Positions 2 to 17,599 of a stretch of 51,914 nt of DNA are shown piece by piece. The DNA lies in NCBI RefSeq assembly GCF_013620825.1, contig NZ_NJIC01000054.1:1-51914 (forward strand), in the 5' to 3' direction. The position numbers and the translations under genes were made by a program. Numbering within the stretch: the first letter of the stretch is position 1; every line of letters begins with the position of its first letter. The notes below the pieces were generated by a model. That model searched no databases and was not told where the DNA came from. It saw nothing but the letters and a program-made list of their open reading frames with translations. Source of the DNA: Rhodanobacter sp. PCA2 (GTDB lineage: Bacteria; Pseudomonadota; Gammaproteobacteria; Xanthomonadales; Rhodanobacteraceae).

Positions 2-433
2 TCTCGCCCGTCACCTACGCCATGGCATCATCAACCACCTCTACTTCCGGGTGACTCGGAAAAACGAGGACGCTTCAGTACGGATATGGAAAGAGGCCTT
101 TTAGCGCAAGGAACGTTACTTCTTGAGGGGAGCCTAGGTTGTGTTGGCCAACTGTCTAGGTGGCTCAGGCAAGCCCTGGTACGGGCGCAGTTGGACGGTG
201 CGAAGCTGCTAACCCAAGCGCATCTTAAAACCAGCGCTCTCCCGCAATCACAGTTTGCTGCCCTACATCGCGAGATCGAAGCGGGAGAGGCCAAGCTGGC
301 CTCTTACTCATCCGGCGAGTTTCAAGCACCCTTCCCGAGTACAACGGTAGCCGAGACCACAAGGCGTCGCCCGGGAACGCGCAAGCCACGGCGCCATGAG
401 CGTGATGCACGGGTTGGCGATGCAGCTCCTTAG
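2..433 (+). CDS. TniB-like AAA+ transposition ATPase, C-terminal fragment
   Basis: This reading frame is open from the left edge and stops at 431-433, so only the last ~143 codons are present; the gene begins outside the window. No Walker motifs are visible because that part is missing. The segment around positions 86-290 (GTLLLEGSLGCVGQLSRWL followed by helical, charged sequence) resembles the lid/C-terminal part of TniB/TnsC-type ATPases, which have a similar GxxGxLxxLL stretch. Its end overlaps the start of tniQ by 38 bases, the usual tniB-tniQ arrangement. In the Tn5053/Tn7 families this ATPase links the transposase to target selection. The identification rests on this short similarity and on the neighbour; the last ~35 residues are Arg-rich and uninformative. 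Confidence 0.5.
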   Translation, partial: SRPSPTPWHHQPPLLPGDSEKRGRFSTDMERGLLAQGTLLLEGSLGCVGQLSRWLRQALVRAQLDGAKLLTQAHLKTSALPQSQFAALHREIEAGEAKLASYSSGEFQAPFPSTTVAETTRRRPGTRKPRRHERDARVGDAAP

Positions 434-1760
434 AATCCCGGTGGCTTGCGATGAGGGACGAGCCATTGAATCACTACCCTCTTACATCATCCGTCTGGCT
501 CAACAACATGTGATTCCGGCGGGCACCCTGATCACTCGCTTGACGGAGGCGCATCCCATCTCCGGCACAGCAAGCGCAAAGGCGCAGAGTGCACCGTTGG
601 CCTGCCTGACGAGACCGAATCGGACTACCGCCGACGTCGTTCAGATGGTTGCTCTGGCCACAGGCACCGAGCCTATTGTGCTTCGAAGGATGACCTACCT
701 TTTCCTAGAGCAGGCGCTTGGGCGGACGGCAGGTGCATACGCGAAACGCCTTAGATGGTGCCCGGCTTGCCTTAAAGCAGACGTAGATTCCGGCCAGCCG
801 GCCTATCTTCGTCTTCTATGGTCGTTATCTGCGGTGGAAGCATGCGAGATACACGGATTGCGTTTGCAGGAGCGCTGCACGCATTGTGGCCACATCCCGC
901 GGGGTTATGCTCAATGGACTTGCTTAAGCCGATGCCAAAAGTGCAAGAAACAACACGAAGACCGGTCACACTCGAAAGTGTTACCCTCGATACAGCAGTT
1001 CGGCCTGGACCTTGCTGATCTTGTGGATGCAATAAGCCGACGCGCTGATAGCTTTCCTCGGGGCGGGGTAACTGCAGGTGTCAAGAAAGTCTTTGACGCA
1101 GTGTGGGAGGCCGAGCAGGAGATACGTCTGTGGAACAAGCTCTCCCGCGATCAGTGGATAAAATTGGCACTACAGGACGAGCCAATCAGTCTCACGGCAG
1201 CTAGGCAATTGTCCTCGTGTCTCGACGTGCCGCTTCCCCTTTTACTCGAAGGTCATGTTGGCACGGCCGTCTTCAAGTTTGTGTTGGAGAATCCTCCTCC
1301 AGCGCTAGCGCGAACGAGTGCGAAGCGCGTAGACCCTAGGAAACTACAGATAGCTTTTGAAGCCATCCTTGCCGAAAGTCATGAGCCGCCTTTGTCGCTC
1401 AAGGCCATCGCGACTACCCTCGGCGTCGCACAAAACACGCTGCGAAATCACTTCCCGCGCAAATCGGCCTTGGTTGTCGCCAACTGGTCTGCTTACCGAA
1501 CGAGTAGACCCGAGCGCTACAAGAACGAAGCGATAGCCGCTGCGAGGTCGCTCTTGTCGACATGGCATGACACTCAAACAGAGCTTCTGACCAAGAAGTC
1601 GTTCCTACGCGTTCTACTAAATCGTTCTTCGCTTCCAAAGAACTTACTGCGTGCAGTCATCGAATTCGTCTTAACCGAACAATCCGCCGCCCGACTTATT
1701 CTCCATGAGCTAGATGCAGAGACTCGAAATCCACTTGCAAACCGCGCTCCGTTTGCTTGA
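396..1760 (+). CDS. tniQ: TniQ family target-selection protein
   Basis: A 454-residue TniQ/TnsD-type protein. The N-terminal signature is visible at residues ~27-45 (ESLPSYIIRLAQQH), matching the family's 'ES(L/F)xSYxxRLA' start. Zinc-binding pairs follow at residues ~121-126 (WCPACL), ~148-153 (CEIHG), ~160-164 (CTHCG) and ~180-185 (CQKCK). A C-terminal helix-turn-helix-like segment lies near residues 335-355 (SLKAIATTLGVAQNTLRNHF). In Tn7-like and Tn5053-like elements TniQ reads the target site and recruits the TniB/TnsC ATPase. The overlap with the upstream ATPase fragment supports co-transcription. The ATG at 396 is used; a second in-frame ATG at 420 is possible. No integrase (TniA) is in view and would be expected further left. 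Confidence 0.85.
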   Translation: MSVMHGLAMQLLRIPVACDEGRAIESLPSYIIRLAQQHVIPAGTLITRLTEAHPISGTASAKAQSAPLACLTRPNRTTADVVQMVALATGTEPIVLRRMTYLFLEQALGRTAGAYAKRLRWCPACLKADVDSGQPAYLRLLWSLSAVEACEIHGLRLQERCTHCGHIPRGYAQWTCLSRCQKCKKQHEDRSHSKVLPSIQQFGLDLADLVDAISRRADSFPRGGVTAGVKKVFDAVWEAEQEIRLWNKLSRDQWIKLALQDEPISLTAARQLSSCLDVPLPLLLEGHVGTAVFKFVLENPPPALARTSAKRVDPRKLQIAFEAILAESHEPPLSLKAIATTLGVAQNTLRNHFPRKSALVVANWSAYRTSRPERYKNEAIAAARSLLSTWHDTQTELLTKKSFLRVLLNRSSLPKNLLRAVIEFVLTEQSAARLILHELDAETRNPLANRAPFA

Positions 1761-2013
1761 GGTTCACCCGCACCGAGTTCGCTGCTGGCGGAAGTGGTCA
1801 TCGTTGCAAATCACCCACGAGGCCATGAAGGCTTGGACAAAGTATCGCGAGCACGGTATGACTCGCCACAGACAACCTAAGTCAGACGTGTGTGGCGTGA
1901 CTCGACGGGCACAACGGTCTATGGCGAGCTCCTCGCCGGCAGCTGTTTCAGGCCGCTTCCCACGATAGTTTGCAGCTGCATCGAATGTTGTACCGTCAGA
2001 GCGGAGCACACCA

Positions 2014-2757
2014 GTGAATCGAAAAACGCCCGAGTGGGAACTATATGAGCGGGTGGTGGCACGAATGCTTGTAGATCAGTTGGAGACCGATCTTTGCGTT
2101 ACACCAAACGCGCGCATTGTCGGAAGGGTCACCGGAGTACGCAGGCAAGTCGATGTGCTGATCGAGGCACGGCATGACACCGACAACAGTCGCCGCTTAA
2201 TCGTGGATGCAAAGAGGAGAGCCCGAAAAATAGACGTCAAGGACGTGGAGAGTTTTCGGGGGCTGATGGAGGACGTGGGTGCGACCCACGGGTATCTTGT
2301 AAGCCCAGCCGGCTATACGAAAGCGGCTGAAAAAAGAGCGCAGGCTGCTGTCTCCATCCGTATCTTGCCGTTGGATCACCTGAAGGACTTCGATCCGTCG
2401 ACATGGCCACGTTGCCAGAGGAAGGGTTGCAAGCACGGTCGCGTTTTCTGGGATGGCTATCCTGAACTCACCATGGTCCTTCAACCGCTTCACGCTTCAG
2501 AACCTGTGCATTACCCAGCTGTGCACTATGTGGGAAAGTGCGACCGCTGCGGAAGGTTTCATGTGCAGTGTCTCGTTTGCAATGATATCTTGGCGCCATC
2601 GGAAGCCGATAATGATTGCGGCCATCAGTGCAGTTGCAGACCTCCTTGGTTCTGGCTCGCCTCCATCGAAGAGGACGATGATGGTTACGACTCGGCTGAG
2701 TTGCATGCGTGCCTGATGACTGGCCAAGTCATAACCGTCGACCGGCGGTCGCTCTAA
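2014..2757 (+). CDS. Mrr-like restriction endonuclease with zinc-finger C-terminus
   Basis: A 247-residue protein with a PD-(D/E)XK nuclease core in its first half: GVRRQVDVLIEA near residues 42-53 supplies the catalytic Asp, and LIVDAKRRA near residues 62-70 supplies the D-A-K motif, followed by a helical 'FRGLMEDVGATHGYLVS' stretch typical of restriction endonuclease_like/Mrr-cat folds. The second half is rich in paired cysteines (CQRKGC, KCDRCGRFHVQCLVC, CGHQCSC), suggesting one or two zinc ribbons for DNA or protein contact. The GTG start at 2014 is chosen because GGAG at 2003-2006 is spaced 7 bases upstream. It stands alone, 250 bases after tniQ and 470 before vsr. Probable defence nuclease; target unknown. 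Confidence 0.7.
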   Translation: MNRKTPEWELYERVVARMLVDQLETDLCVTPNARIVGRVTGVRRQVDVLIEARHDTDNSRRLIVDAKRRARKIDVKDVESFRGLMEDVGATHGYLVSPAGYTKAAEKRAQAAVSIRILPLDHLKDFDPSTWPRCQRKGCKHGRVFWDGYPELTMVLQPLHASEPVHYPAVHYVGKCDRCGRFHVQCLVCNDILAPSEADNDCGHQCSCRPPWFWLASIEEDDDGYDSAELHACLMTGQVITVDRRSL

Positions 2758-3231
2758 GTTCGACAGTGAGCAGCCATTTCGCTAGACGCGCAAAAATAAT
2801 CTGCTTCAAGAAAGGCGCTCTTCGACCAGAAGAAGACCCATGCGTGAGCAGGTAGGTTTGCTCACGATATGTCTGACTTCTATGGGAATTGATGTCCAAA
2901 AATCGGACAACTATGCATGGAGGAGCAAAGCGTAACCTATCCTCACATCCACCCAAGCAATGGCGGGAAGATGTCGTTGCTGGTTCCAAGAGGTCGACGC
3001 GACTACTACTCTCTGGTACTTGATACAGATGCACGTGCTGCGGGCAAATGCGTCGCGCAGACTTGTGGACATTCCCGACCACAAATCAGATAGCCGTTGC
3101 TTGACCTACCCGCCCCTATGGCGAGAACGCCGCTCACTACGAACACAGCAGAGTATTCCGCGGGAGACTGTGCCTGGCGTGCTCTAAAGTACACCGGTGC
3201 GGAGGCTTAAAATCGAGTAAAAGGTATTCCC
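2758..3231 (+). other. Intergenic stretch with two short possible peptides
   Basis: No convincing gene fills this 474-base gap. A 31-codon frame runs 2840-2935 (starts MREQVGLLTIC, ends NYAWRSKA). A second frame starts at the ATG at 2917, meets an amber TAG at 3091-3093 after 58 codons, and continues in frame to a TAA at 3208-3210 (last segment includes SAGDCAWRALKY). The interrupted frame could be a decayed small gene. It could also be chance; there are no domain matches I recognise. Confidence 0.3.
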
Positions 3232-3645
3232 GTGGATAAGGTCTCCCCCACGACAAGAAGCCGGATGATGCGTGCCGTCGGTCGACGCGACACCAAGCCC
3301 GAGCTTCTTTTTAGGTCTGCTGCTCATAGGCGAGGCTTCCGCTTTTGCATCTGTCGAAAGGATCTCCCCGGATGCCCGGACGTGGTCTTTCCGCGGCTAC
3401 GCCTTGCTGTGTTCGTGCACGGCTGCTTCTGGCATAGACATCCAAGTTGCCCTAGAGCGACCACCCCGACAACGAACCAACGCTTCTGGTCCGATAAGTT
3501 CGATGCGAACGTGGCTCGTGATCGAAGAAATCGGAAGCTTCTCGAACAGCGCGGGTGGGCCGTCATCGAAGTGTGGGAGTGTGAACTGGCTACTCTGGAA
3601 AGCGCCTTCCGGGTCGTAGACAAGCTGCTTCCCCGAGCGTATTGA
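3232..3645 (+). CDS. vsr: Very short patch repair endonuclease (Vsr)
   Basis: A 137-residue Vsr endonuclease, the family's usual length. It nicks 5' of the T in T:G mismatches created when 5-methylcytosine deaminates. Visible signatures: TRSRMMRAVGRRDTKPE at residues ~8-24, LPGCPDVVF at ~45-53 carrying the catalytic Asp, HGCFWHRH at ~62-69 (zinc/active-site His-Cys-His set), FWSDKFDANVARDRRN at ~85-100 and WAVIEVWECEL at ~108-118. The GTG start at 3232 has AAGG at 3221-3224, 7 bases upstream. Vsr genes normally accompany a C5 cytosine methyltransferase; the one here lies 8 kb downstream at 11673, at the other end of the same island, so the two probably function together. Confidence 0.93.
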   Translation: MDKVSPTTRSRMMRAVGRRDTKPELLFRSAAHRRGFRFCICRKDLPGCPDVVFPRLRLAVFVHGCFWHRHPSCPRATTPTTNQRFWSDKFDANVARDRRNRKLLEQRGWAVIEVWECELATLESAFRVVDKLLPRAY

Positions 3646-3687
3646 TGGCATGGAACGTATCTATCGTCTAGAGTTGGCAAAGGAAGA

Positions 3688-5208
3688 GTGCTCGTCAACG
3701 GCAGGGGGCCGCACGTGCGCAAGACATATCACGCATGGAGGCCACCGGTGCTCCATGCAAAAGGGGGGAAGCCACGCGGCCCTCTTGCGATAGAGCAAGG
3801 GGGCACTCCAAAGAGTCTCGGCTATGTTCCGAGCCCCTTCGGCTTCGACTCACCATCCGTCAATGTCGATTACGCGGTCCGCCCAATAGCCCGGGCGGTC
3901 GAGTGTTGGCTCGGAAGCTTAAAAGGCACGACAGGTACCCACGCATCCTTGCGATCTCCAGCCCCTATCGGCCTCCCACTGGCAAGCCGAGGACCCTCTT
4001 CTTTATCGGAGCCCCATGGTTGCGCCGACAAGAGCGTCGACGATGAAGCGATCGAATCCGATGACGTAGCAGCTCCACAGTCCAGCGTTCGCGCAAGTTT
4101 GCTCGAAAGAGCCATGGCAATTCTTTTTGCCGAGCGCGGACGGGCCGGACAACCTCTCCAGCAGGCGTCCCTTGAGCGGGTGTACTCGCTTCTCAAGCTT
4201 GAACCTACGGAGATTTTGCGGATAGCAAAGGATGCGGAAACTGCTGGACTCATGGGCCCAGTACAGGTCGATGATACGGAAGATGAGGCGGCTGAAGATG
4301 AAGAGCAAGAGAGACAGCTGGCTGGGTTGCTCGACCGACTCTTGCATCATGAACTCTTGGGTGCCGAGCAAGAGCGCAAGCTCGGACGCGCAGTGCAAAA
4401 AGGACGAAAATTTGAAGCCCAGATAGCGAGCGGACAGCTGCCGGCAACCCCAGAAGTCTTACGAGAACAGGCACACGGCCTCAAGGCACGAGAAGCGCTC
4501 GTGCTAGCCAACACCAGACTTGCGATGGATATCGCCCGCCGTCATGCCAATCATGCCGTGGAAATGGAGGACCTCCTTCAAGAGGGAATCCTTGGCCTTA
4601 TGCGTGCGGCGGAAAGTTACGATCCGGACCTTGGATTTCGATTCACTACCTACGCAACTTGGTGGGTAAAGCAGTCAATCCTTCGTGCCATCGGCAATAC
4701 CGGACGGGTCATCCGACTCCCTATTCACCGGGTTGATCAATTGAAGGCGTTGCGACGTGTCCTACGTCGGCTCCAGGCACAAGCGCCCGCGAGAAGAATT
4801 CGGCCGCAGCAGATCGCAGATGAGCTCGGTTGGCCAATAGAGAAAGTCGGAAAGCTGATGGTGCTTGAAGCCGAAAGTTTTGTGCCATTGGACCTGTCCG
4901 ATGGAGAAGGGCCGAGCCTTATCGACCAGCTTGCTTCTTCCGAGCCTACGCCTGAGGCCTTGGCGATCGAAGTCGACTTCGAGAACTTCATGTCCGTATG
5001 GATTTCAGCATTACCGGAGCGCGAAGCAGACATCCTACGGCAGAGGTTTGGTCTGGATGGTCAGAGCCCTGTGACCTTAGAAAGCGTAGGTAAGCAATAC
5101 AACCTTACACGTGAACGGATCCGGCAGCTGGAAAGCAAAAGCTTGAAAAAGTTAGCTCACCCGGCAAACAAGATGGTCGCGGAAGGAAGGGAATTTTTAA
5201 ATGACTGA
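3688..5208 (+). CDS. RpoD-like sigma-70 factor coupled to the drmA-drmB operon
   Basis: A sigma-70 family protein of up to 506 residues. Visible regions: 1.2-like (LLHHELLGAEQERKLGRAV, ~214-232), 2.1-2.2 (MEDLLQEGILGLMRAAESYD, ~293-312), 2.3-2.4 (FRFTTYATWWVKQSILR, ~317-333), region 3 (~340-405), and 4.2 helix-turn-helix (LTRERIRQLESKSLKKL, ~474-490). A short helical domain before region 1.2 (~143-190) may correspond to region 1.1. The start is uncertain: GTG 3688 has a purine-rich site only 3 bases away, and the first ~115 residues look unlike a protein, so the ATG at 4114 (364 residues) is a serious alternative. Its stop overlaps the drmA start by 8 bases, so it is translated with a defence helicase. 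A housekeeping paralogue, rpoD, lies at 15581. Confidence 0.85.
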   Translation: MLVNGRGPHVRKTYHAWRPPVLHAKGGKPRGPLAIEQGGTPKSLGYVPSPFGFDSPSVNVDYAVRPIARAVECWLGSLKGTTGTHASLRSPAPIGLPLASRGPSSLSEPHGCADKSVDDEAIESDDVAAPQSSVRASLLERAMAILFAERGRAGQPLQQASLERVYSLLKLEPTEILRIAKDAETAGLMGPVQVDDTEDEAAEDEEQERQLAGLLDRLLHHELLGAEQERKLGRAVQKGRKFEAQIASGQLPATPEVLREQAHGLKAREALVLANTRLAMDIARRHANHAVEMEDLLQEGILGLMRAAESYDPDLGFRFTTYATWWVKQSILRAIGNTGRVIRLPIHRVDQLKALRRVLRRLQAQAPARRIRPQQIADELGWPIEKVGKLMVLEAESFVPLDLSDGEGPSLIDQLASSEPTPEALAIEVDFENFMSVWISALPEREADILRQRFGLDGQSPVTLESVGKQYNLTRERIRQLESKSLKKLAHPANKMVAEGREFLND

Positions 5209-8200
5209 GCACTCGCAGACGGTCAAAAATGATTATTTCAGCAGAGCAATCAAATGGCTGCAGCATGAAATCATCGTAGACGCGAGGGGTGACCGAGCTA
5301 GAGAGAGTGATAGTCAGCCTTCGAGCCTGTTCTGGTTAGGTCGATTGTCGCCTGAGATTGATGTCAGCAATGTCGATGACGACCGGTTCGAGCGCTTGGC
5401 TCCCTGTGCTATTGGCCTGCGCATACGTCCGTCCCAAGCTGGACCTTGGTCTTTCGGCGTGAGTGCAACCTTCGTCGTATGGTCGAAGCCGGAGCGCGGC
5501 GGCACATGGCAAAAAAGTGGGCCTATCAGTGTGAAGCGCGAGATCACAGTCGAAGCAGACTTGGTTACCTCTCGCACGCTTAGTGAGCCCCTCAAGCAAG
5601 CCATCGTTCGGGAAACGGGTCGTGAGGATCTTGCAGCAGCGATCGATATCTCGCTTGAGACTCGAGATGGGCGACAGGAGCTTGTCATCCAACTGGTCAA
5701 TACGTCTGAAAGCAACGAAAAGGCTCCACAGGATCGGAATCTTTACGAGGCCTGCCTGGAGGTGGGTGGACTCACAACCACCCCGTTCGAACTTGAGGGG
5801 CTAGAAGACGCCTTCCGATATGACCGGGAACTTCCCGCGATAGGCTTAAACGCGGCTGTCCTGGATCGAGGCGGCAGGATCGCTACCAGCGATGTTCCCG
5901 AAGCTACACGATTCCGTCCGACGTTCGTCCCACCTGGGATTGACGAAGCAACGCTATCCTTCGTTCGCCTGGCGGAAGACCCTGTCCAGACGGCAACTTT
6001 GCTGCACGCCGCCCATAAGGCATGGGGCCTAGTGCATTGGAGCGAGCAATCTCTTTCGGAGCGTGCAGCAAGGGAAAGGTGGTCCTCCGAAATGGTCGAG
6101 GCTGCGGCTGCGGGCCGAACGGCCTTTTGGGAGGAGAACGCTAGATTGGAGCAGGGTCTCCGGCTGCTTGCGGAGGAGGAGGAGCTGAGGCGGGCCTTCA
6201 AGCTGATGAATGAGGCGATGGAGATATCCGCGAACGGGAGGTATCACGGCTGGCGCGCATTTCAATTCGGCTTTCTCGTGGCCAATCTAGCTTCGTTGAT
6301 GGAGCCATCGGAAGCCGAAATCGCAGACATCGTGTGGTTCGCGACTGGCGGTGGGAAAACCGAAACCTATCTTGGTCTGTTGGTCACGGCAATGTTGCTT
6401 GATCGCATGCGCGGCAAGCTTTCCGGGATAACTGCATGGAGCCGGTTCCCTCTGCGAATGCTTTCTCTCCAGCAGACGCAACGCTTTGCCGACGCGATCG
6501 CGGCCGCCGAGCTTGTTCGCCGACGCTACTTGATCGGAGGCGACACTTTCTCGCTTGGTTTTTTTGTCGGTCAAGGGGCGACCCCCAACGAGTTCAAGGC
6601 GGATCCCAAGGAGGACGAGCCGAATGCTTACGACGACGAATCGAACAAGCGATTCCTCATCCTGGATCGGTGTCCGTTCTGTCGTAATACTAGTGTCGAC
6701 ATTGCGTTCGACCTCGAAACCTGGACTTTGCAGCATCGGTGCACAGCGCCGAATTGCGAATGGCCCGAGCAGGCATTGCCGTTCTACATCGTTGATCAAG
6801 AAATTTACCGCTTTCTACCGACCGTGGTCGTCGGAACGCTCGATAAGGCTGCGTCAATAGGTATGCAGGCGGCTATGCGGGGCTTCATTGGGAACCCGCT
6901 CGGACTGTGTACAGGAAAAGGACACGGCTTTACTTACGCACCTCGCAGCAGCAGGCCTTCAGGTTGTCTCGTACCCGATTGCGCACATGCAGTCACGCCA
7001 ATATCTAAAGATCCGCGCTTCGCCCCGTCGCTTCGTCTGCAAGACGAGCTGCATCTTCTCAGGGACAGTCTTGGAGCCGTGGATGCCCACTACGAGGCCC
7101 TCTACGACCATCTGAGCGCAGCCACCTCCGAGAGAAAGCCGAAGATCTTGGGGTCGTCTGCAACGCTCGCGGGATACGAACATCAAGTAGATACCTTGTA
7201 CGGGAGGCGGGCGAGAGTCTTTCCTCAACCTGGCCCTGCCCCAGGTGTCGGTTTTTGGACTTCGGACTCCGGCCAGCTGATGCGGCACTACATTGCACTG
7301 GCACCGCGTGGCGCTACGGTCGAGCACGCGGTCGATCGCATCCTAACCGTACTTCAGCGCAGCATTCGACGGCTTCTGTCCGATCCCGAAGTGACGTGCC
7401 CAGAAATAGGCATACCTGTGGCAATGGCTGGGGAAATCGTTGATCTCTACGGGACCGACGTCGTTTACGGAAACACTCTGCGTGACCTGGATGCGATGAC
7501 TCGATCCGCAGAGACGCAGGTGCTTGTGGAGGGAAAAGTTACGCAAGCATCACTTACTGGGCGCACGGACTTCGAAGAGGTGCGCCAGACGCTTGCCCGA
7601 CTCGAAAAGCCACCCGCTCAATTTGATGAGAGGCTCCATCTGATCATGGCGTCCTCAATGATGTCACACGGTGTCGACATCGACCGGCTGAACGTTATGA
7701 CCATGGTCGGCTTTCCGTTAGGCACAGCAGAATTCATTCAAGCCACGGCCCGTGTAGGGCGCAAATATCCAGGGCTCGTGATTCTGGTGCCCAAGATGGG
7801 TCGAGAGCGGGACGCTGGGATTTACCGGACTTTTCCTAAGTTCGTGGAGCATGCCGATCGGTTGGTCGAGCCCATCCCGATTACTCGGCGAAGTCGAAGG
7901 GTTCTCCAGAGGACTTTGCCTGGTATGGAACTGGCTCGAATCCTGATGTTGGAAGAACCTGCAGCTGGTAAGTCCCTCGTCATGGCTAGAGCCCTGAAGC
8001 AATTCCGGGCTGACGAGAATTTCGACCCGGATGCCGAGGCGGAAGCCTTGATGGAAGCACTAGGCCTGATAGGTGAACTCAATGAGGCACTTCGTAAGGA
8101 TGTTGCTGAATGGGTGGATGTCTTTATGCGGAACATCAACGACCCGCCAGCTGACGTGAGGTTCAGCTCGGAGGCCAGTCCCGGAAGTGGGCCTATGCGC

Positions 8201-8257
8201 TCACTTCGTGATGTCGAAGAAAGTGTGACCGTCTATGGCAAGGAGGATCTGCGATGA
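5201..8257 (+). CDS. drmA: DrmA-like SF2 helicase (DISARM-type)
   Basis: A 1018-residue helicase resembling DrmA of DISARM anti-phage systems. Walker A is IVWFATGGGKTETYLGL near residues 379-395, a DELHLLRD motif II near 615, GSSATL (motif III) near 651, and ATARVGRKYPG (motif VI) near 848-858, preceded by SSMMSHGVDIDRLNVM. A four-Cys zinc ribbon (CPFC...CTAPNC) is inserted near residues 492-518. The first ~370 residues are a family-specific region without a motif I can name. In DISARM, DrmA and DrmB form a complex that binds and unwinds invading DNA. The ATG lies inside the end of the sigma gene and the stop overlaps drmB by ATGA, so sigma, drmA and drmB are one operon. Confidence 0.85.
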   Translation: MTEHSQTVKNDYFSRAIKWLQHEIIVDARGDRARESDSQPSSLFWLGRLSPEIDVSNVDDDRFERLAPCAIGLRIRPSQAGPWSFGVSATFVVWSKPERGGTWQKSGPISVKREITVEADLVTSRTLSEPLKQAIVRETGREDLAAAIDISLETRDGRQELVIQLVNTSESNEKAPQDRNLYEACLEVGGLTTTPFELEGLEDAFRYDRELPAIGLNAAVLDRGGRIATSDVPEATRFRPTFVPPGIDEATLSFVRLAEDPVQTATLLHAAHKAWGLVHWSEQSLSERAARERWSSEMVEAAAAGRTAFWEENARLEQGLRLLAEEEELRRAFKLMNEAMEISANGRYHGWRAFQFGFLVANLASLMEPSEAEIADIVWFATGGGKTETYLGLLVTAMLLDRMRGKLSGITAWSRFPLRMLSLQQTQRFADAIAAAELVRRRYLIGGDTFSLGFFVGQGATPNEFKADPKEDEPNAYDDESNKRFLILDRCPFCRNTSVDIAFDLETWTLQHRCTAPNCEWPEQALPFYIVDQEIYRFLPTVVVGTLDKAASIGMQAAMRGFIGNPLGLCTGKGHGFTYAPRSSRPSGCLVPDCAHAVTPISKDPRFAPSLRLQDELHLLRDSLGAVDAHYEALYDHLSAATSERKPKILGSSATLAGYEHQVDTLYGRRARVFPQPGPAPGVGFWTSDSGQLMRHYIALAPRGATVEHAVDRILTVLQRSIRRLLSDPEVTCPEIGIPVAMAGEIVDLYGTDVVYGNTLRDLDAMTRSAETQVLVEGKVTQASLTGRTDFEEVRQTLARLEKPPAQFDERLHLIMASSMMSHGVDIDRLNVMTMVGFPLGTAEFIQATARVGRKYPGLVILVPKMGRERDAGIYRTFPKFVEHADRLVEPIPITRRSRRVLQRTLPGMELARILMLEEPAAGKSLVMARALKQFRADENFDPDAEAEALMEALGLIGELNEALRKDVAEWVDVFMRNINDPPADVRFSSEASPGSGPMRSLRDVEESVTVYGKEDLR

Positions 8258-9996
8258 GGGATGAGCGTAGCGCGTCGCAAATTCAGTTTGGATTCCTTCC
8301 TCAGCAGACCGTTGATGTGAAGGGAGGCATATGGAAGGTCGCGTATTGGAACGACGCAATTCCCGAACATTCGGTAGATGCCAACGCTCTTCGCAAGGAG
8401 TTGTTACGAACGATCTCGCCTTGGACTCATGCTCAGACGGACAGCGGGTTTGCGGCACACCTGCGCGGTAACTACGCCCTGGAATTGCGTAAGTTGAACC
8501 GGGATCGCGGAGTAACACTCAAGCCCTTTCCCGCCATATGGATGTGTAGAGCCCCCAACTGCGGGAGGCTGCATCGACAAAAGGTCGGCAAGTGCCAGTG
8601 CGGGTCGTCCGGCAGTCGCGCGCAACTGCCTTTTGTGGGGTACCACGAATGTGGCGCGCTTCGAGAACCCCAACTGCCGATGTGCCCTGAGCACAGGCAG
8701 GTTTCCATCCAGTATCCGGGTACGTCTTCGGCACGGGATATCCGTTTCTATTGTCCTGTTTGTAAGAAGACCCTGCGCCAGGGGCTCGCGAACAACGTTC
8801 CTTGCGAGTGTGGCCACGGCCGGATGAGCTACAACGTTCATCGAGCCGCAAGCGTATACACGCCGCGCAGCGTCGTGATGGTCAACCCGCCTACAACCCA
8901 TCGAATTCAGCAACTTCGGGACGCCGGTGGGGAAGCGCGTGCACTGGAGTGGGTCCTCGACGGCATGACCGAGCGAGATGCCACCGATGCGGGTACGACG
9001 GCTGAGTCTTTGCGTCAGCAGCTCCGCGCCAACAACCTGCCTGAAGCGCTTGTAGACAGAATGGTCCAAGAAGCAATCGGCTCCGGAGCATTAGCCGGTC
9101 CGCCTACATCGCTTGAACTCGACATTCATCAGAAGGAAGTCGCCGAGGCTGAAGCCGTTCTTATGGCCATGGCTGCCGCGCAGTCGCGTATGACACTGGA
9201 GGATCTGAGGAAACGTGCCCCCCCCATCTCGCCGTCGGGCGTGCGGTACCACGAAAAATACGGGCGAGCGATCCGGACGGCAGGCATGGAAGCGGTTGAG
9301 CTATACGACCGCTTTCCAGTGATGGTCGGCCATTACGGATATACCCGTGGCGGAACCGCTCCCGGGGAGTCGACACTACGCCCCTTCAGGGACAAGAACG
9401 GGACCTACGCCGTGTATGGCGAAGTCGCCGAGACGGAAGCACTTCTGTTTAGGCTTTCACCGCTGCGCGTGTGGGATTGGATCGCTAACCGTGGTCTTGC
9501 AACGGGTGAGGCGCCTGGGACAGCACGCGAAGCCAGAGCCGCAATATTAAAGTCCGCCGACATGCCGGAATGGGGATACCAGGGAAATGAGCTTGGTTCG
9601 GCATTGCTTACAATGATCCATTCGATGGCTCACCGCACGCTTAGGATCCTCGCGGTACACGCGGGCATTGAACGTAACACACTCTCCGAAATGTTGGTGC
9701 CAAGCCACTTGGGCTTCTACATCTACGCCGCGGCAAAAGGAGACTTCGTTCTAGGAGGGTTGCAGGCAGTTTTCGAATCTGACCTCGATACATTCCTTAG
9801 GGCGCTGGTCAATGATGAGCACCGATGTGCTCTTGATCCAGGTTGTGAACGTGGAGGCGGGGCATGCACAGCATGTCTCCACATCGGAGAGCCGTCTTGT
9901 CGGCTCTTCAACCGCCACCTATCGCGAACTTCCCTCTTCGGGGCTGACGGCTATCTGCGGCCCGCAGCTTCAGTAATGGAGCGGGCTGCAGGGTGA
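8254..9996 (+). CDS. drmB: DrmB-like DUF1998 protein
   Basis: A 580-residue DUF1998/DrmB protein, the core partner of DrmA in DISARM. Cysteine clusters suggest several zinc sites: CRAPNCGRLH...CQCG near residues 94-113, CPVCKKT...CECGHG near 167-188, and the C-terminal set CALDPGCERGGGACTACLH...CRLFN near 528-554. The DUF1998 core is visible near residues 455-515 (ALLTMIHSMAHRTLRILAV, then LGFYIYAAAKGDFVLGGL). The ATG overlaps the drmA stop (ATGA), implying translational coupling. Its last 46 bases overlap the end of the convergent NERD-helicase gene on the other strand. DrmB is known from DISARM structures to help load DrmA on DNA; that role here is inferred. Confidence 0.85.
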   Translation: MRDERSASQIQFGFLPQQTVDVKGGIWKVAYWNDAIPEHSVDANALRKELLRTISPWTHAQTDSGFAAHLRGNYALELRKLNRDRGVTLKPFPAIWMCRAPNCGRLHRQKVGKCQCGSSGSRAQLPFVGYHECGALREPQLPMCPEHRQVSIQYPGTSSARDIRFYCPVCKKTLRQGLANNVPCECGHGRMSYNVHRAASVYTPRSVVMVNPPTTHRIQQLRDAGGEARALEWVLDGMTERDATDAGTTAESLRQQLRANNLPEALVDRMVQEAIGSGALAGPPTSLELDIHQKEVAEAEAVLMAMAAAQSRMTLEDLRKRAPPISPSGVRYHEKYGRAIRTAGMEAVELYDRFPVMVGHYGYTRGGTAPGESTLRPFRDKNGTYAVYGEVAETEALLFRLSPLRVWDWIANRGLATGEAPGTAREARAAILKSADMPEWGYQGNELGSALLTMIHSMAHRTLRILAVHAGIERNTLSEMLVPSHLGFYIYAAAKGDFVLGGLQAVFESDLDTFLRALVNDEHRCALDPGCERGGGACTACLHIGEPSCRLFNRHLSRTSLFGADGYLRPAASVMERAAG

Positions 9997-11585
9997 TCTG
10001 AAGGCATCAGTATCACGGCCGCTGCCCTCGCGCGACTGAGGCCGACGAAAGCGGCCACCAATCCTGAGGGCACATCGTGAGACCGGGAGAGAACGAGAAG
10101 AACAACGGGTGACTCAAGGCCCTTAAAGCGCGATACGCTTTCGCAAACAACGCCATCTCCTCCAAAGCCGACAACTGGTTGTTCACCGACATAGGCGTTT
10201 CGGAGCCGTTCTGCAAGGCGAGGTTCGTCGACGAGGATCGTGAGCTCTGATGCTTCGACTTCTTGGTCTTCCATCAAACGTTGACTCAGCTCCAGCACTA
10301 AGGATGCCAGGTCGTCCCCTGGTCCGTAAGTGATCGTGATCACCGGAGCTCCTTCAGCAGCACCTGGCGGCGAAGCGGTTCCGAAGATCGCATTCATGCA
10401 ACGAACAATCGGCGCTGAGTTTCGGCAGTTGTCAGATAGCTCTAGCTCTCCGAAGTGCTTCAAGCCACTGTGCCAGTCGCGACGCCAGAGTTCCTGGCGG
10501 TCGTCGGCAAACACGTACATCGGGCCGTGTTCCGGATCGGACAGCCCCGCTGAGAGCGTCTTGAACCAGAGAGGAGAGAAGTCCTGGCCCTCATCAACGA
10601 TTACAGCATCGTAAACACCGCTCTTGGCGGCAAAGGTGGCTTCCAGCTCTTTGGCGGCCTCGACGTCCCACCAGCTTTGATCCGGCACTGAAGGAGTCGT
10701 CATACCGGCTTGCCGCAAAGCCGAAGTACAGAGGTGATGAAAAGTAGAGACCTCCACTCCAAGGCAGCTGGCAAGATGGTGCCGGATCACACGCGACAGC
10801 AATTCGTTGTAGCAGACCATCAGAACCCGCGCCCCTTGCTCCGAAAGAAGGCGAGCTCGTTCGATAGCCAGCAGCGTTTTACCTGTACCGGGCCCTCCTG
10901 ATACCAACAGTCTGGAAACGGCCCGGAGTCTGGCGAAGCCCCGTTGCTGCGACTCGGTAAGCCGCACGATCTCGGCCTCCGTTTTCCGGAGGCCTATACT
11001 GAGAGTGCGTTCGATGGTCACGGTTGGCGCCAATAGGGTGACCAAGCGGTCGAGTTGGCCTGAGGAGAACGGCCGGGACGCACCCCAATGTCTGAAGACG
11101 CGGAGTAGCGCCTCTTCGATGGCCGTGAGGTCGCTTGAAAATAAAGTGATTTCCGGGGTGGCCACTGGCCCGAGACAGACGTGCGTCTCTACATCAGGAA
11201 AGGCTACTGCATGAACAATCGGTATTTGTGCCAGGGACTGGTCGAACGATGAGAGAAACGCCAACAACGCGTGCTTAGAGTGAGTAGCTTGAACGTACGG
11301 ATTCTTGATGGCGTGACTATGGCCGTGCCGGTCTACGGAGGTCCAGCGACCGTCCTCGATGACGATTCCTCCTCCCTTTACTTCAAGGACGACAAGGCCG
11401 TGCTTACGGTGAGCGACCAGGAAGTCTGCTTCACCGTCACCTTGGCGGCCTGCGCGCAGCGACTGCCAACGGACTGAATGAAAGACGATCCAATCGTCGC
11501 TTAGTCGTGCCAAAGCACCGAGCACCTCCCGCTCGGACTGGGGCGGGTGGGTGGCGCCCTCGTCAAGCTTGTATACGATCGCCAT
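9951..11585 (-). CDS. NERD nuclease-UvrD/Rep-type helicase fusion
   Basis: A 544-residue fusion. Residues ~10-110 form a NERD nuclease-related domain (PD-(D/E)XK type) with GEADFLVAH near 51-59 and VVLEVKGGG near 64-72 as the likely catalytic D...ExK set. A superfamily 1 helicase follows: Walker A GGPGTGKTLLA near 228-238, Walker B AVIVDEGQDFSPLWF near 307-321, and a late SRFKGLESPVVLLV motif near 485-498. The start at 11585 (MAIVYKLDEG) is preferred because GGAGG sits 9 bases upstream; a longer frame to 11660 lacks support. It diverges from the methyltransferase gene and converges on drmB. Such proteins recur in defence islands as DNA-degrading effectors. It may supply the nuclease activity that PLD-type DrmC supplies elsewhere; this is inference. 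Confidence 0.85.
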   Translation of the reverse strand: MAIVYKLDEGATHPPQSEREVLGALARLSDDWIVFHSVRWQSLRAGRQGDGEADFLVAHRKHGLVVLEVKGGGIVIEDGRWTSVDRHGHSHAIKNPYVQATHSKHALLAFLSSFDQSLAQIPIVHAVAFPDVETHVCLGPVATPEITLFSSDLTAIEEALLRVFRHWGASRPFSSGQLDRLVTLLAPTVTIERTLSIGLRKTEAEIVRLTESQQRGFARLRAVSRLLVSGGPGTGKTLLAIERARLLSEQGARVLMVCYNELLSRVIRHHLASCLGVEVSTFHHLCTSALRQAGMTTPSVPDQSWWDVEAAKELEATFAAKSGVYDAVIVDEGQDFSPLWFKTLSAGLSDPEHGPMYVFADDRQELWRRDWHSGLKHFGELELSDNCRNSAPIVRCMNAIFGTASPPGAAEGAPVITITYGPGDDLASLVLELSQRLMEDQEVEASELTILVDEPRLAERLRNAYVGEQPVVGFGGDGVVCESVSRFKGLESPVVLLVLSRSHDVPSGLVAAFVGLSRARAAAVILMPSDHPAARSITEAAGRR

Positions 11586-11672
11586 CCGTAGTCGCCTCCC
11601 CCTCGAGATTTTGTTCGGGATAGGGTAGCCTTTTTGCCAGCAACCTGAAGGCGCCAGCATCTCTCTTACGAC

Positions 11673-12728
11673 ATGGAAAACCCTCGCATCAAGGCAGTGG
11701 ATCTATTTTGTGGTGCGGGTGGCCTGACACATGGCCTCGCGAGCGCTGGTGTTGACGTGCGCGTCGGCGTCGATCTCGACCCGGACTGTCGATTCCCTTA
11801 CGAAGCCAATAACGCGGCTTCGTTCATGTGTGCCGACGTAAGGGCGTTGTCCGGAAGGCACTTCAGCAGCTTTCTAGAAGGTGCTGAGCTGACTCTTCTT
11901 GCTGGTTGCGCGCCATGCCAGCCGTTCTCTACATACAGTCAAGCTCGTGATCCGAAAGCCAGCAGTGACTGGGGCATGCTCCTTGAGTTCGGCCGACTGG
12001 TTTCCGAAGTGAAGCCAGACCTCGTAACAATGGAGAACGTGCCACAGCTTGCAGACAACGACGTGTTTAGAGACTTCGTCGCTAAGCTTGAGGGATATCA
12101 CACATGGTGCGGCGTCGTAGACTGCGCAGAATATGGTGTGCCGCAGCGGAGGCGCCGACTCGTGCTACTCGCGTCACGACTCGGCGAAATTTCGCTGCTC
12201 TCTCCGCAAGAGGTCGGCGCCCGCCGACGGACGGTGCGGTCGGCAATAGCTGATATGCCGTCGCTCGCTGCTGGAACGTCGGATCCCTCCGACTCTATCC
12301 ATGCTGCGGCAGGTATGTCCGAGTTGAACCTCAAGCGAATCCGGGCATCGCTGCCTGGAGGCAGCTGGCGTGACTGGCCGAAGTCCTTGCGCGCAAGTTG
12401 TCACCATAGGTCGACGGGTACTGGCTACGGGGCCGTTTACGGGCGCATGGAGTGGGGACGGCCCGCTCCAACAATGACGACCTTGTGCCATGGATTTGGC
12501 AACGGGCGCTTCGGCCACCCTGAACAAGATCGGGCGATAAGTCTTAGGGAGGCTGCGATTCTGCAATCCTTCCCAAAGCGATATAAGTTCGTTCCTGAGG
12601 GCGAACGAGTGCGCTTCACGTCGGTGGGGCGCTTGATCGGTAACGCGGTACCCCCACGCCTCGGACAGATCATCGGACGCAGCTTCTTCTCGCACGCTCG
12701 CGCTAACCCGAAAGCCAGACGGGCTTGA
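11673..12728 (+). CDS. C5 cytosine-specific DNA methyltransferase (DrmMII-like)
   Basis: A 351-residue DNA (cytosine-5) methyltransferase with the ordered motifs: I DLFCGAGGLTHGLASAG near residues 10-26 (SAM binding), IV GCAPCQPFSTYSQ near 78-90 with the catalytic Cys, VI MENVPQL near 120-126, VIII VPQRRRRLVLLA near 157-168, and IX/X LIGNAVPPRLGQIIG near 322-336. The target recognition region lies between ~200 and 300. Class 2 DISARM uses this enzyme type to mark self DNA, and the vsr gene in the same island fits a 5mC product. It starts 87 bases from the divergent NERD-helicase start. No clear Shine-Dalgarno site precedes the ATG, so leaderless or weak initiation is possible. Confidence 0.93.
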   Translation: MENPRIKAVDLFCGAGGLTHGLASAGVDVRVGVDLDPDCRFPYEANNAASFMCADVRALSGRHFSSFLEGAELTLLAGCAPCQPFSTYSQARDPKASSDWGMLLEFGRLVSEVKPDLVTMENVPQLADNDVFRDFVAKLEGYHTWCGVVDCAEYGVPQRRRRLVLLASRLGEISLLSPQEVGARRRTVRSAIADMPSLAAGTSDPSDSIHAAAGMSELNLKRIRASLPGGSWRDWPKSLRASCHHRSTGTGYGAVYGRMEWGRPAPTMTTLCHGFGNGRFGHPEQDRAISLREAAILQSFPKRYKFVPEGERVRFTSVGRLIGNAVPPRLGQIIGRSFFSHARANPKARRA

Positions 12729-13193
12729 CCTCTAGCCCGTCGTGGAGCACTACGAAGTTCTCTAGTTCGTGACTCTACGGATCACTGATGGTGCCCGGTT
12801 TGGGTTAAAGCTAGAGTGCCAAAGGTATTAGGCACCCCCCGCGCCCTCGCGTGCGTCCGTACTGCGTTGCGCCGGAGAGGATGACCATGATGCGACGTCG
12901 CTGTCGACCATCTCTTCGTGAGTGGAACATAGCGGTTGACCTCAGCCGGTTCGTCATCTTGTATAGCAAACCCAACCAAAGGTTGCTCTGCGCGTGACGT
13001 ATGCCCGCTATGGAGCCCAAGCGAAAACCTGTGCGGAAAGCCATAGTTTGGCCGAAGGGTACCTGCGAGCATCCAATAGCCGGCAGTCAATATATGCTTT
13101 ACGGTCGTGGACAAGTACGCAACAAGACAAATCGCTCGTATGGTCAAATTTGTTGCCGACCGAAATACTGAAATTACCTTTCCGTCATTTTAT
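12729..13193 (+). other. Non-coding stretch between methyltransferase and winged-helix gene
   Basis: I see no credible gene in these 465 bases. Frames open here have no recognisable protein features. The stretch holds one copy of the 10-base motif CAAACTATGG (13041-13050, minus orientation) and one copy of a 32-base direct repeat (13079-13110), both of which recur between 14713 and 14874. Confidence 0.6.
13079..13110 (+). repeat. 32-base direct repeat, copy A
   Basis: It begins GCCGGCAGTCAA, contains GCTTTACGGT and ends GG. It matches 14713-14744 at 26 of 32 positions in the same orientation. The two copies flank the winged-helix gene and the small membrane protein gene. Possible recombination or binding sites; function unknown. 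Confidence 0.6.
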
Positions 13194-13901
13194 TCAGAAA
13201 GGCACATCGTCCGCGGTCGGCGGCTTTGGTTGCGTTGTTTGTCTCGCTGTTGAGGCGGCTTGATCCATCGGGTCAGCTCGACGATTTCCGACGAAGTCAC
13301 CAAGCAAAGCGTAGAAGTTGACGGGGTGTCCACCGGACGCCGATGACTTTTCACCCATGTGAACATGAACAAGCCGATGGTTCACCAAGTGATCTATGCC
13401 TTGGCGTACATATCGAGCTTGCATTCCGCAGTATTCGCGAATCTTCTGATGGGCAATTCTCGCTATGTTGGTTGAATTGTTTCGGAGAGCAAGAAGCAAA
13501 ATGAGAATTTTTATTGCGCTAAGAGCAGATTCACCTCGATTTGGAAGTTGCCCAAGTGCGCCCCGAACCTGCTCGGGAACCTTAGTGAACGGCGCATTCG
13601 AAGTTCCTTCGAAGCCGGTCAATGTATATCGATAGGTGCGACGTGTTCGGTCGACGAGAACCAAGCCAGCATCTTCAAGAATGGCGATTCCATGAACCAC
13701 CATAGGTCTTGAGCATCCTGTCATAAGTTCAAAGCTGGTGAGCGAGATATCTGTCGATTTCGTTTTGAAATCCAAGACGGACGCAATTGCCAGATAGCAC
13801 TTGAGCGCCGCCACGTGCTTTCCGGTCGTAGACCCAGCTTTAAACCGGTTCAACCCACCTTCGCGGAAGACCCAGGCGGGCGGGAAATGTCCCCAGCTCA
13901 T
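13194..13901 (-). CDS. Tandem winged-helix DNA-binding protein
   Basis: A 235-residue protein with two predicted winged helix-turn-helix units. The first spans about residues 28-97 (helical KHVAALKCYLAIASVL, then DISLTSFELMTGCSRPMVVHGI, then wing-like VLVDRTRRTYRYTLTGF). The second spans about 122-195 (ALSAIKILILLLALRN, IREYCGMQARYVRQGIDHL, then VHVHMGE). The C-terminus is polar, Gln/Pro-rich and probably disordered. Tandem winged helices occur in plasmid/phage replication initiators and in transcription regulators; I cannot choose between them. The start overlaps the stop of the upstream 50-residue membrane gene by ATGA. Repeats on both sides could be its binding sites. No family name recognised. 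Confidence 0.65.
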   Translation of the reverse strand: MSWGHFPPAWVFREGGLNRFKAGSTTGKHVAALKCYLAIASVLDFKTKSTDISLTSFELMTGCSRPMVVHGIAILEDAGLVLVDRTRRTYRYTLTGFEGTSNAPFTKVPEQVRGALGQLPNRGESALSAIKILILLLALRNNSTNIARIAHQKIREYCGMQARYVRQGIDHLVNHRLVHVHMGEKSSASGGHPVNFYALLGDFVGNRRADPMDQAASTARQTTQPKPPTADDVPF

Positions 13902-14050
13902 TGGTCACCCCTCTTCTTCTTACGCGTGACAACTCTGCCGACGACGTCCAGTGCTTTCCAGGCGACTAGCAGGGCCAAGACACAAACGATGGCCAGAGCG
14001 GCCTCAGGCTTATCGTTGCTCACCATGGACAGGATTTCGTTCATCGGCAT
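13898..14050 (-). CDS. Small single-pass membrane protein upstream of winged-helix gene
   Basis: A 50-residue frame starting MPMNEILSMVSNDKPE. A clear hydrophobic helix follows (residues ~17-34, AALAIVCVLALLVAWKAL) and then a basic tail ending RKKKRGDQ, as in single-pass inner-membrane proteins with the C-terminus in the cytoplasm. Its TGA overlaps the ATG of the winged-helix gene in the classic ATGA form, which strongly suggests a real, translationally coupled gene. The start could also be the Met at residue 3; no strong ribosome site is visible for either. No family recognised. It might tether or signal to the downstream DNA-binding protein, but this is a guess. Confidence 0.65.
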   Translation of the reverse strand: MPMNEILSMVSNDKPEAALAIVCVLALLVAWKALDVVGRVVTRKKKRGDQ

Positions 14051-14180
14051 GACCAGGGTTGTTGTAATGGACGCACCCTAGGGTATCTACGGCGATGCAT
14101 CTAGATTGAACACTATCATGTCGCAACAATAAATATTAATAAAAACAATGTTTTATGTGAAAATACACCATCCATAGATA

Positions 14181-14227
14181 GTAAATGGCACAACCAATTT
14201 GGTCATAAAAGGCGGCCTGCCATTTAC
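14181..14227. repeat. Perfect 10-base inverted repeat, possible transposase-binding site
   Basis: GTAAATGGCA at 14181-14190 faces its exact complement TGCCATTTAC at 14218-14227. A smaller palindrome, ACCAATTTGGT, lies inside. A related GCGACATTTACC follows at 14271-14282. The (T)AAATGNC pattern recalls the short repeated TnsB/TniA sites at ends of Tn7-like elements; that link is inferred. Confidence 0.5.
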
Positions 14228-14712
14228 CATTCGATGGGTTTTTACGGTGCATCGAAACTCGGCTGTGTAAGCGACATTTACCCTCAAGCCGCTGCGTGGG
14301 GCTGGTTAGACGCCTGAATGCTCGACATCGAGCGTAGATCGCATGTGGTTGGTTGAGGGTGGCACGCCTCTGCTTACGACGATCAGCTGCCTGGTTTCGA
14401 GTCAGTGGCCTCGAACATCATTGGAACAAGGCGCCGGATTTCCGGCCGTCATCGCAGGTTTGGCAGCGCTGTTCGCGGTTTCTAGGCACTGCGGATGGCT
14501 GCGCCGGCGCCACAGATGAGGGGGCTGCTCAGCCGCTCATCACGGCTGGTCTATACCGCACGCTTATAGGCGCAGAACAATCAGATATGCCGCAGGAATT
14601 TCTGGTTCGGATCGCCCCGGCAGCACCTGCGATGCTGCCCACCGCTTCGGCGTTGCCGGCAAAGCTGTAACAGTGCCTGATCGATGGCGCCAGCGTGGCT
14701 ATAGGCACGCTG

Positions 14713-14744
14713 GCCGGCAGTCAAACTACGCTTTACGGTTACGG
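14713..14744 (+). repeat. 32-base direct repeat, copy B
   Basis: Second copy of the repeat at 13079-13110 (26 of 32 bases identical, same orientation). It lies 168 bases before the tRNA end, followed by three CAAACTATGG-type motifs. Confidence 0.6.
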
Positions 14745-14823
14745 CCATTTTGTGGTTTCAAGCACAAACCCCTTATCGCTAGCGACAAGCACCTGGCCAC
14801 GACTGGCTATGGCCGAAGCAGCA

Positions 14824-14874
14824 AACTATGGTTCCGAAAAACCATAGTTCGTTCTTTCCGCTCAAACTATGGTT
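14824..14874. repeat. Three AACTATGGTT motifs beside the tRNA
   Basis: AACTATGGTT occurs at 14824-14833, inverted (AACCATAGTT) at 14840-14849, and again at 14865-14874. The first two form a hairpin with a 6-base loop. A fourth related copy, CCATAGTTTG, is at 13041-13050. Such clusters next to a tRNA 3' end suggest arm-type recombinase or regulator binding sites. Confidence 0.55.
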
Positions 14875-14911
14875 TCCCGAACAAACACCATGTGGTTTGC
14901 AGCTGGCTGAA

Positions 14912-14984
<73 letters not shown>

Positions 14985-15115
14985 GTCGTGGCTGCGCGGG
15001 GCAGTGCGGCATGGTAGCGGCGGGGGGCGCGGGCGTCGAGCGCGCGGGGCTGCTGACAGAACGTTGTCAGTGGGTGGGCATAGTCTGGCGGCTCCATCCC
15101 CCTGGAGACACCCGC

Positions 15116-15487
15116 ATGAATACCGAAGCCGTGGCGAAACGATTGGTCGAGCTGTGCCGCAAGGGCGAATTCGAGCAGGCGCAGCGGGAGCTGTTCGCGC
15201 AGGATGCCGTGAGCATCGAGATGCCGGGCGCGCCGTCGGGCGCGCTGGGCGATGCGAAGGGACTGGAGGCGATCTACGAGAAGGGCCGCCAGTTCGGCGC
15301 CATGGTGGAGGCGATGCACTCCAGCGAGGTGAGCGATCCGGTGGTGGCGGGCGACTGGTTCAGTCTGTCCATGGCGATGGACGTCACGTTCAAGGAGCGG
15401 GGCCGCACGCAGATGGCGGAGCTCTGCGTGTACCACGTGCGCGACGGCAAGGTGGTGAGCGAGCAGTTCTTCTACGACATGGGCTGA
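15116..15487 (+). CDS. SnoaL/NTF2-like domain protein
   Basis: A 123-residue single-domain protein of the NTF2/SnoaL fold. The N-terminal helices carry the typical 'F..A..ELFAQDAVSIEMPG' run at residues ~18-40, then the FGAMVEAMHSSEVSDPVVAGDWFSLSMAMDVTF strands at ~62-95, and a final YHVRDGKVVSEQFFYD strand at ~106-121. Members are small stress-related or polyketide-cyclase-like proteins; the ligand cannot be read from sequence. The ATG at 15116 is chosen because GGAG at 15104-15107 is 8 bases upstream; a longer frame exists but runs through non-protein-like sequence. It stands alone between tRNA-Ile2 and rpoD and is followed by a strong hairpin. Confidence 0.8.
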   Translation: MNTEAVAKRLVELCRKGEFEQAQRELFAQDAVSIEMPGAPSGALGDAKGLEAIYEKGRQFGAMVEAMHSSEVSDPVVAGDWFSLSMAMDVTFKERGRTQMAELCVYHVRDGKVVSEQFFYDMG

Positions 15488-15500
15488 GCGGGCCGGATGC

Positions 15501-15528
15501 GACGACGGCCGCTTGCGCGGCCGTCGTC
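15501..15528 (+). terminator. Hairpin terminator after SnoaL-like gene
   Basis: Perfect 12-base stem GACGACGGCCGC / GCGGCCGTCGTC with a 4-base loop, 14 bases after the stop codon. Only two Ts follow, so efficiency is uncertain. It may act on both strands because rpoD converges here. Confidence 0.6.
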
Positions 15529-15543
15529 TTGCCCTCTCCCCGG

Positions 15544-15567
15544 CCCCCTCCCGCATGCGGGAGGGGG
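15544..15567. repeat. REP-like palindrome
   Basis: Loop-free 24-base palindrome of CCCCCTCCCGCA and its complement, preceded by CTCTCCCCGG. A related 'CCCCTCTCCC' hairpin is at 43531-43553. Dispersed units of this style are common between genes of Xanthomonad relatives. Confidence 0.6.
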
Positions 15568-15580
15568 GAACTCGAAGCGA

Positions 15581-17452
<1,872 letters not shown>

Positions 17453-17484
17453 TCAACGACCGCCGCAGGGTTCAAGAACCGGAC

Positions 17485-17513: not shown

Positions 17514-17599
17514 GTTTTCAAGTCGGAAAAGTTCACCGGGGCACACGCAAAAATCGCGCCAAATCGCGGGCTTGCGCGCCGGTTGAGGTTTCTAGCCAT

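Follow-up and report, generated by a model that had tools for sequence, protein, structure and literature searches.

Why should a predicted defence operon carry a sigma factor? The question is raised by a locus of Rhodanobacter sp. PCA2 within the 51,914-nucleotide stretch analysed here (contig NZ_NJIC01000054.1; hereafter the window), where a gene for a sigma-70 family factor directly precedes drmA and drmB. The first-pass annotation had read the three genes, at 3688-9996, as a possible self-transcribing defence operon. The open reading frame (ORF) coordinates agree with it on all three genes and on their junctions: the sigma gene ends 8 bases inside drmA, and drmA and drmB share a 4-base overlap, ATGA (Table 1). 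Its interpretation is partly supported. The three ORFs stand, and the limits of the cassette do not, as genes for a Vsr endonuclease, a NERD nuclease-helicase and a DNA 5-cytosine (5mC) methyltransferase also belong to it. Sigma, drmA, drmB and the 5mC methyltransferase form its conserved core, to which the NERD nuclease-helicase and Vsr are often added. Transcription of the cassette by its own sigma factor is plausible.

Close relatives of the window DrmA, matching over nearly the whole length at ~47-56% identity, are encoded in two genomes (G125 and G172), in Roseomonas and Burkholderia plasmids and in viral contigs. The next-best plasmid matches have ~27-35% identity (best 40 of 85 records). 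A tree of 35 DrmA rows places the eight group members in one clade (support 100/100) that groups, under midpoint rooting, with DrmA rows including drmE-type loci (100/100). G125, G172 and the viral contig L033 have ~14 kb of common DNA. The loci L024, L025 and L033 were counted as a single prophage-borne lineage because they are 95-96% identical at the DNA level. The other four lineages are the window genome, the viral contig L082, the Roseomonas plasmid L035 and the Burkholderia plasmid L036, and DrmA identity between lineages is 47-58%. Two more contigs (L032 and L034, the latter a fragment) end inside drmA with the 5' side unseen and were excluded from the counts. All five lineages lie on mobile DNA, namely prophage or viral contigs, plasmids and a tRNA island. 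The clade is rare, with three genomes (PCA2 itself, G125 and G172) among 1,459 counted as searched in a sampled survey in which some genomes were searched repeatedly and E limits varied. Scans of the whole collection of genome contigs with the window DrmA and with alignment A1 confirmed no relatives, and a search of 50,697 phage records likewise yielded no DrmA relative at E 1e-5.

Conserved linkage of this sigma clade with drmA-drmB had been set beforehand as a test of the operon proposal, and it holds. The sigma gene is part of the cassette in all five lineages of the DrmA clade and lies directly 5' of drmA in four of them (window, L024/L025/L033, L035 and L082). The L036 sigma gene instead occupies the opposite strand, adjoins the NERD-helicase gene and faces drmA-drmB. 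A sigma match (E 1e-3) was found in none of 27 outgroup DrmA loci, searched as stretches of 11.9-19.9 kb of which one (L094) has <1 kb of 5' flank; this fits the earlier statement that a sigma factor is not in the canonical DISARM set. Six further DrmA loci (L138, L140, L144, L148, L149 and L150) also gave no sigma match at E 1e-4. Fisher's test of 5/5 versus 0/27 returns p = 5e-6, or 3e-5 without the window; both values treat the lineages as independent and are optimistic because the clade lineages are related and have one origin. The 5mC methyltransferase is likewise found in 5/5 lineages, two of them with distant versions (30-36% identity), and the L082 contig is cut on the methyltransferase side. 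The NERD-helicase and Vsr are the variable parts, each present in 3/5 lineages: orthologues of the former occur in the L024 lineage and L036, and Vsr is also found in the L024 lineage and L035. Since sigma is present in all five lineages that could be judged, it appears to be a genuine component of the defence system. Within the L024 lineage the sigma gene is under purifying selection, with dN/dS values of 0.10 and 0.21 (0.07 and 0.105 for drmA). The NERD-helicase gene of L033 is unlike the other genes, with a dN/dS of 0.65 and one gap.

The related loci have features of their own. The L036 cassette, at 11980-17972 of a Burkholderia aenigmatica plasmid, is decayed, with drmA split over two ORFs and an IS3 element inside drmB; its sigma and NERD-helicase genes are annotated as full ORFs despite this decay. 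At 980-9346 of the prophage-borne L024, a type I restriction-modification set precedes sigma in the same orientation, separated from it by two small ORFs. At 3287-5094 the Roseomonas plasmid L035 encodes, beside a HEPN-like nuclease, a second 5mC methyltransferase that is 60% identical to the window enzyme.

The sigma protein contains regions 2 and 4 with their -10 and -35 reading helices, as judged from Pfam matches and aligned helices. In 6/6 aligned cassette sigmas from the five lineages, the sequence of the -35 helix is RERIRQ or RERVRQ. The -10 helix retains in 6/6 the glutamine that we take to be Q437 in E. coli numbering; at the positions assigned in the same way to T440 and W433, the former is changed to L in the window and to R in L036, and the latter to H in L082. 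The RpoD-like reading helices are thus largely kept, as they would be in a working sigma factor, and primary-sigma chains are the top Protein Data Bank (PDB) matches of the AlphaFold2 model (best E 2.7e-15). The housekeeping RpoD of the same genome is also encoded in the window, at 15581-17452 on the minus strand. Its identity to the cassette sigma is 37% over ~237 residues, which indicates that the cassette gene is no recent rpoD copy. Possible start codons for sigma are GTG (3688, 3715 and 3748), TTG (3949 and 4099) and ATG (4114). The ORF proposed in the first-pass annotation (3688-5208) exists, but its true start is uncertain because only the part from ~4084 onward aligns with the other cassette sigmas; the stretch 3688-4083 received no separate homology search.

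The conserved part begins with an N-terminal domain that marks the family. In leave-one-out tests among 38 sigmas, from which L025 and L033 were left out, a profile of this domain built from four lineages always recovered the remaining lineage (E 4e-6 to 5e-13). Against the 33 other sigmas the same profiles did best at 5e-4, in a single test of the five, and reached no better than ~0.003 in the rest. The domain is modelled by AlphaFold2 as three helices (mean pLDDT 83), and this model has no significant match in the PDB (best E 1.1). The domain resembles region 1.1 only weakly: the L024 sigma matches Pfam Sigma70_r1_1 at 0.0011, under the cut-off, and the region 1.1 profile of RpoD gives E values of at least 0.7 against the cassette sigmas and an hhalign probability of 4% (E 0.0099). 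Searches of 72,556 plasmid records point the same way. The window sigma has 333 matches, of which one (Burkholderia) reaches at least 80% coverage, and the Roseomonas sigma covers 70%. The L024 sigma has 485 matches, with at least 80% coverage only on two plasmids, from Roseomonas and Burkholderia, the same records in which this DrmA is encoded. Near-full-length sigma matches are confined to DrmA-carrying plasmids because of the N-terminal domain. Six other plasmid sigmas among the 333 records (H44, H70, H81, H88, H89 and H91) were viewed in context, and neither drmA nor an MZA set is annotated next to any of them; the record of one more, H47, is without annotation.

Family models were used to place the cassette among known systems. 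DISARM comprises a methyltransferase, DrmA, DrmB and DrmC together with the less-conserved DrmD and DrmE, and DrmC is often missing and reported dispensable (available text of PMC9142583). The same text describes a DrmAB helicase complex that unmethylated single-stranded DNA activates, with methylation as the mark of self. The window DrmA scores 379.8 bits against NCBIfam DrmAS (cut-off 950) despite a PADLOC DrmA match of 1.9e-100, and the window DrmB scores 46 bits against the NCBIfam DrmB family (cut-off 240) despite a PADLOC DrmB match of 6.9e-31. Pfam DUF1998 matches neither the window nor the L024 DrmB; the L036 orthologue is annotated DUF1998. The methyltransferase agrees with the DISARM set, with DrmMII at 3.8e-85. 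Domain and family scans covered 10 window proteins, and negatives here and below refer to the matches listed (for the methyltransferase in PADLOC, the best 25 of 57). No PLD domain indicative of drmC and no match to drmD or drmE was among them; genes of the control locus L039 match PLDc_2 and DrmE_C. Because the NCBIfam scores fall below their cut-offs and drmC, drmD and drmE were not found, the cassette is called DISARM-like, not DISARM.

The closest comparison is with DISARM class 2 (L039 and L040), which has drmA and drmB arranged as in the window, preceded by a variable gene and with a methyltransferase nearby. In L039, drmE lies 5' of drmA and a PLD gene (drmC) 3' of drmB, and L040 is annotated likewise. 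The window cassette differs in having sigma in the drmE slot and no drmC found, and its DrmA, at 1018 residues, is shorter than the 1050-1467 residues of the 27 outgroup rows, to which it is ~26-33% identical. A third arrangement occurs on Rhizobium and Azospirillum plasmids (L148, L149 and L150), where a UvrD helicase gene is followed by drmA, a DUF1998 gene and a NERD-helicase gene; a sigma match was not found there, and the annotation lists no PLD gene. These loci resemble the window in the drmA-drmB core and the NERD-helicase 3' of it, and L149 also has Vsr and a 5mC methyltransferase. They differ in the UvrD helicase gene, rather than sigma, 5' of drmA and in a DrmA only ~30-32% identical. 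The 5' slot thus holds drmE, a UvrD helicase or sigma, so the drmA-drmB pair is constant and the 5' gene is exchanged. A survey of YprA-family helicases names ARMADA, BRIGADE and TALON; in its main text, as far as available, 'sigma' occurs only in a supplier's name (PMC12458937). As described there, the YprA-family helicase is shared with ARMADA and TALON and the NERD nuclease with TALON. The TPR-CSD and TBP proteins of TALON were absent from the 10 scanned proteins, and BrxHII and PglX of ARMADA from their listed matches. In the open-access literature no title or abstract opening among the matches listed reports a sigma factor with drmA. The cassette was classed as a new DISARM-like variant, and neither as DISARM nor as MZA.

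What the sigma factor does in this setting is a matter of weighing. Chances are about even, judging from gene content and conserved domains, that it joins the core RNA polymerase of the host, driving transcription of this mobile cassette or keeping it going. Cassette expression would then not depend on the host primary sigma, a protein that phages target and that varies from one host to another. Sigma would give the cassette its own access to host RNA polymerase, and DrmAB and the NERD-helicase would be produced both in a new host and while a phage takes over. As in DISARM, the drmA-drmB product would load on phage DNA that is unmethylated or single-stranded, and the nuclease role of DrmC would fall to the NERD-helicase.

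Several observations weigh against this reading. The RpoD-like DNA-reading residues speak against a wholly private promoter. Searches for sigma-70-type promoters found none in window 2700-5300 (0.8 expected) or in L035 9900-11100 (0.0 expected), and when 12 upstream stretches were compared with shuffled versions (Markov resamples), at least 22 of 200 shuffles reached the score of the best sigma-70-like site in each stretch. A promoter common to these 12 stretches could not be shown; coming from diverged lineages, they offer little power. The lack of a recognisable upstream sigma-70-type promoter neither supports nor excludes sigma-driven expression of the cassette. Strong Shine-Dalgarno-like sequences (GGAAGGAAGGG and AAGGAGGA) lie 5' of the drmA and drmB start codons; as each gene has its own ribosome-binding site, the overlaps are no proof of joint function. 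The sigma model is of moderate quality (mean pLDDT 72, pTM 0.36) and superposes poorly on the best PDB chain (TM-score 0.38), which leaves the domain arrangement unsure. A tree of the sigma core (223 columns; L025 and MzaA were outside it) neither shows nor rejects a single group of cassette sigmas (p-AU 0.306), the sigma-drmA linkage has a single evolutionary origin, and phage defence by the cassette is itself a prediction from gene content.

The conserved reading helices would also suit a sigma factor that reads ordinary sigma-70 promoters, replaces a blocked or redirected RpoD and keeps host defence genes generally on during phage takeover. RERIRQ or RERVRQ in the -35 helix and Q437 in all six cassette sigmas make RpoD-type promoters likely targets, and divergence in the N-terminal domain and linker could provide escape from anti-sigma proteins. 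The same domain, kept among 38 sigmas only within the cassette family, suggests instead a cassette-specific partner, and such a general bypass is possible but on the unlikely side. Another reading makes sigma a sensor or recruiter that, sitting on RNA polymerase at phage promoters or attached to DrmAB by its N-terminal domain, would bring the DrmAB helicase to transcribed foreign DNA, with cassette transcription not its main job. The genes found elsewhere in its 5' slot, drmE and the UvrD helicase gene, are presumed to encode working parts and not regulators, and both this position and the clade-specific domain favour a recruiting role. The L036 sigma gene, uncoupled from drmAB and adjoining the NERD-helicase gene, argues against it, as does the retention of regions 2 and 4, which a working sigma has, and we regard this role as unlikely. 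Somewhat more doubtful again is that sigma is a working subunit tying host RNA polymerase to DrmAB and the NERD nuclease through its N-terminal domain; if so, transcription initiation on incoming DNA would be the trigger or address for restriction.

That sigma came to lie beside drmA by chance in an ancestor and was merely carried along is improbable. All linked cases descend from one DrmA ancestor, which gives a single origin of linkage, and the clade is rare. The NERD-helicase, Vsr and gene order nevertheless vary at 47-58% DrmA identity, yet sigma is kept in 5/5 lineages, once in another operon, and is under purifying selection; this explanation is already disfavoured. Least credible, to the point of being very improbable, is that the cassette is a form of MZA (mzaABCDE), a defence locus that also has a sigma-70 factor, MzaA, with MutL, Z1, DUF and AIPR as its partners. 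MzaA is the best NCBIfam model for 4/5 cassette sigmas and the third for L082. The scores are 231-304 bits (250.9 for the window) against a cut-off of 800, and only the C-terminal part aligns, the first 388 or more of the 726 model positions being unmatched. No MutL, Z1 or AIPR family was found in the matches listed for the 10 window proteins, which together with the cut-off already disfavours this identity. A search for the MzaA family returned 0 hits in 185 genomes at E 1e-80 without recovering the controls, so that absence is not shown. MzaA is a known sigma factor in a defence system (available text of PMC9523054; NCBIfam NF041931) and a precedent that the first-pass annotation did not mention.

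The cassette and its neighbours are listed in Table 1. The NERD-helicase probably starts at 11585, as judged from alignment. Homology to same-genus genomes starts at 14912, the end of the tRNA-Met gene, in 6/6 cases, and these six genomes have no DrmA match at E 1e-20. The resumption of homology at this point indicates that the cassette is part of an island that ends at tRNA-Met and includes the TniQ gene; the far end is unseen because window base 1 is contig base 1. Several direct and inverted copies of a CAAACTATGGTT-like repeat lie at 14812-14912, beside the tRNA-Met island end, and with TniQ at the other end they could mark one end of a Tn7-like element. A 235-residue ORF at 13194-13901 (minus strand) weakly matches O-like replication-initiation proteins of phages in PHROG (6.7e-6) and gave no match in a Pfam scan.

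Table 1. Features of the sigma-drmA-drmB cassette and its island surroundings (window positions).
Feature	Position	Strand	Evidence
TniQ-family protein, probable island mobility gene	396..1760	+	Pfam TniQ 1.2e-16
Mrr-type restriction endonuclease, island neighbour, candidate cassette member only	2014..2757	+	Pfam Mrr_cat 3.4e-12
Vsr endonuclease	3232..3645	+	TIGR00632 139.5 bits (cut-off 97.85)
Sigma-70 family sigma factor	3688..5208	+	Pfam Sigma70_r2 3.5e-18, Sigma70_r4 1.2e-14; homology-supported part ~4084-5208
Clade-specific N-terminal three-helix domain of sigma, then acidic linker	4084..4284	+	leave-one-out profile search; AlphaFold2
drmA-like YprA-family helicase, 1018 aa	5201..8257	+	PADLOC DrmA 1.9e-100
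drmB-like protein, 580 aa	8254..9996	+	PADLOC DrmB 6.9e-31
NERD nuclease fused to UvrD-type helicase	9951..11660	-	Pfam NERD 1.1e-13, UvrD-helicase 1.1e-7
DNA 5-cytosine methyltransferase	11673..12728	+	Pfam 1.6e-48; best PADLOC match DrmMII 3.8e-85
tRNA-Met; 3' end = island boundary	14912..14984	-	ARAGORN

To our knowledge, few defence systems contain a full sigma factor. This cassette has kept an RpoD-type sigma in prophages, on plasmids and in an island, and it allows a direct test of the means by which mobile defence operons ensure that they are expressed, both in a new host and when a phage takes over RNA polymerase. The 5' slot of drmA, occupied by drmE, a UvrD helicase gene or sigma, appears to be modular, and this may help to find the roles of the genes that fill it.

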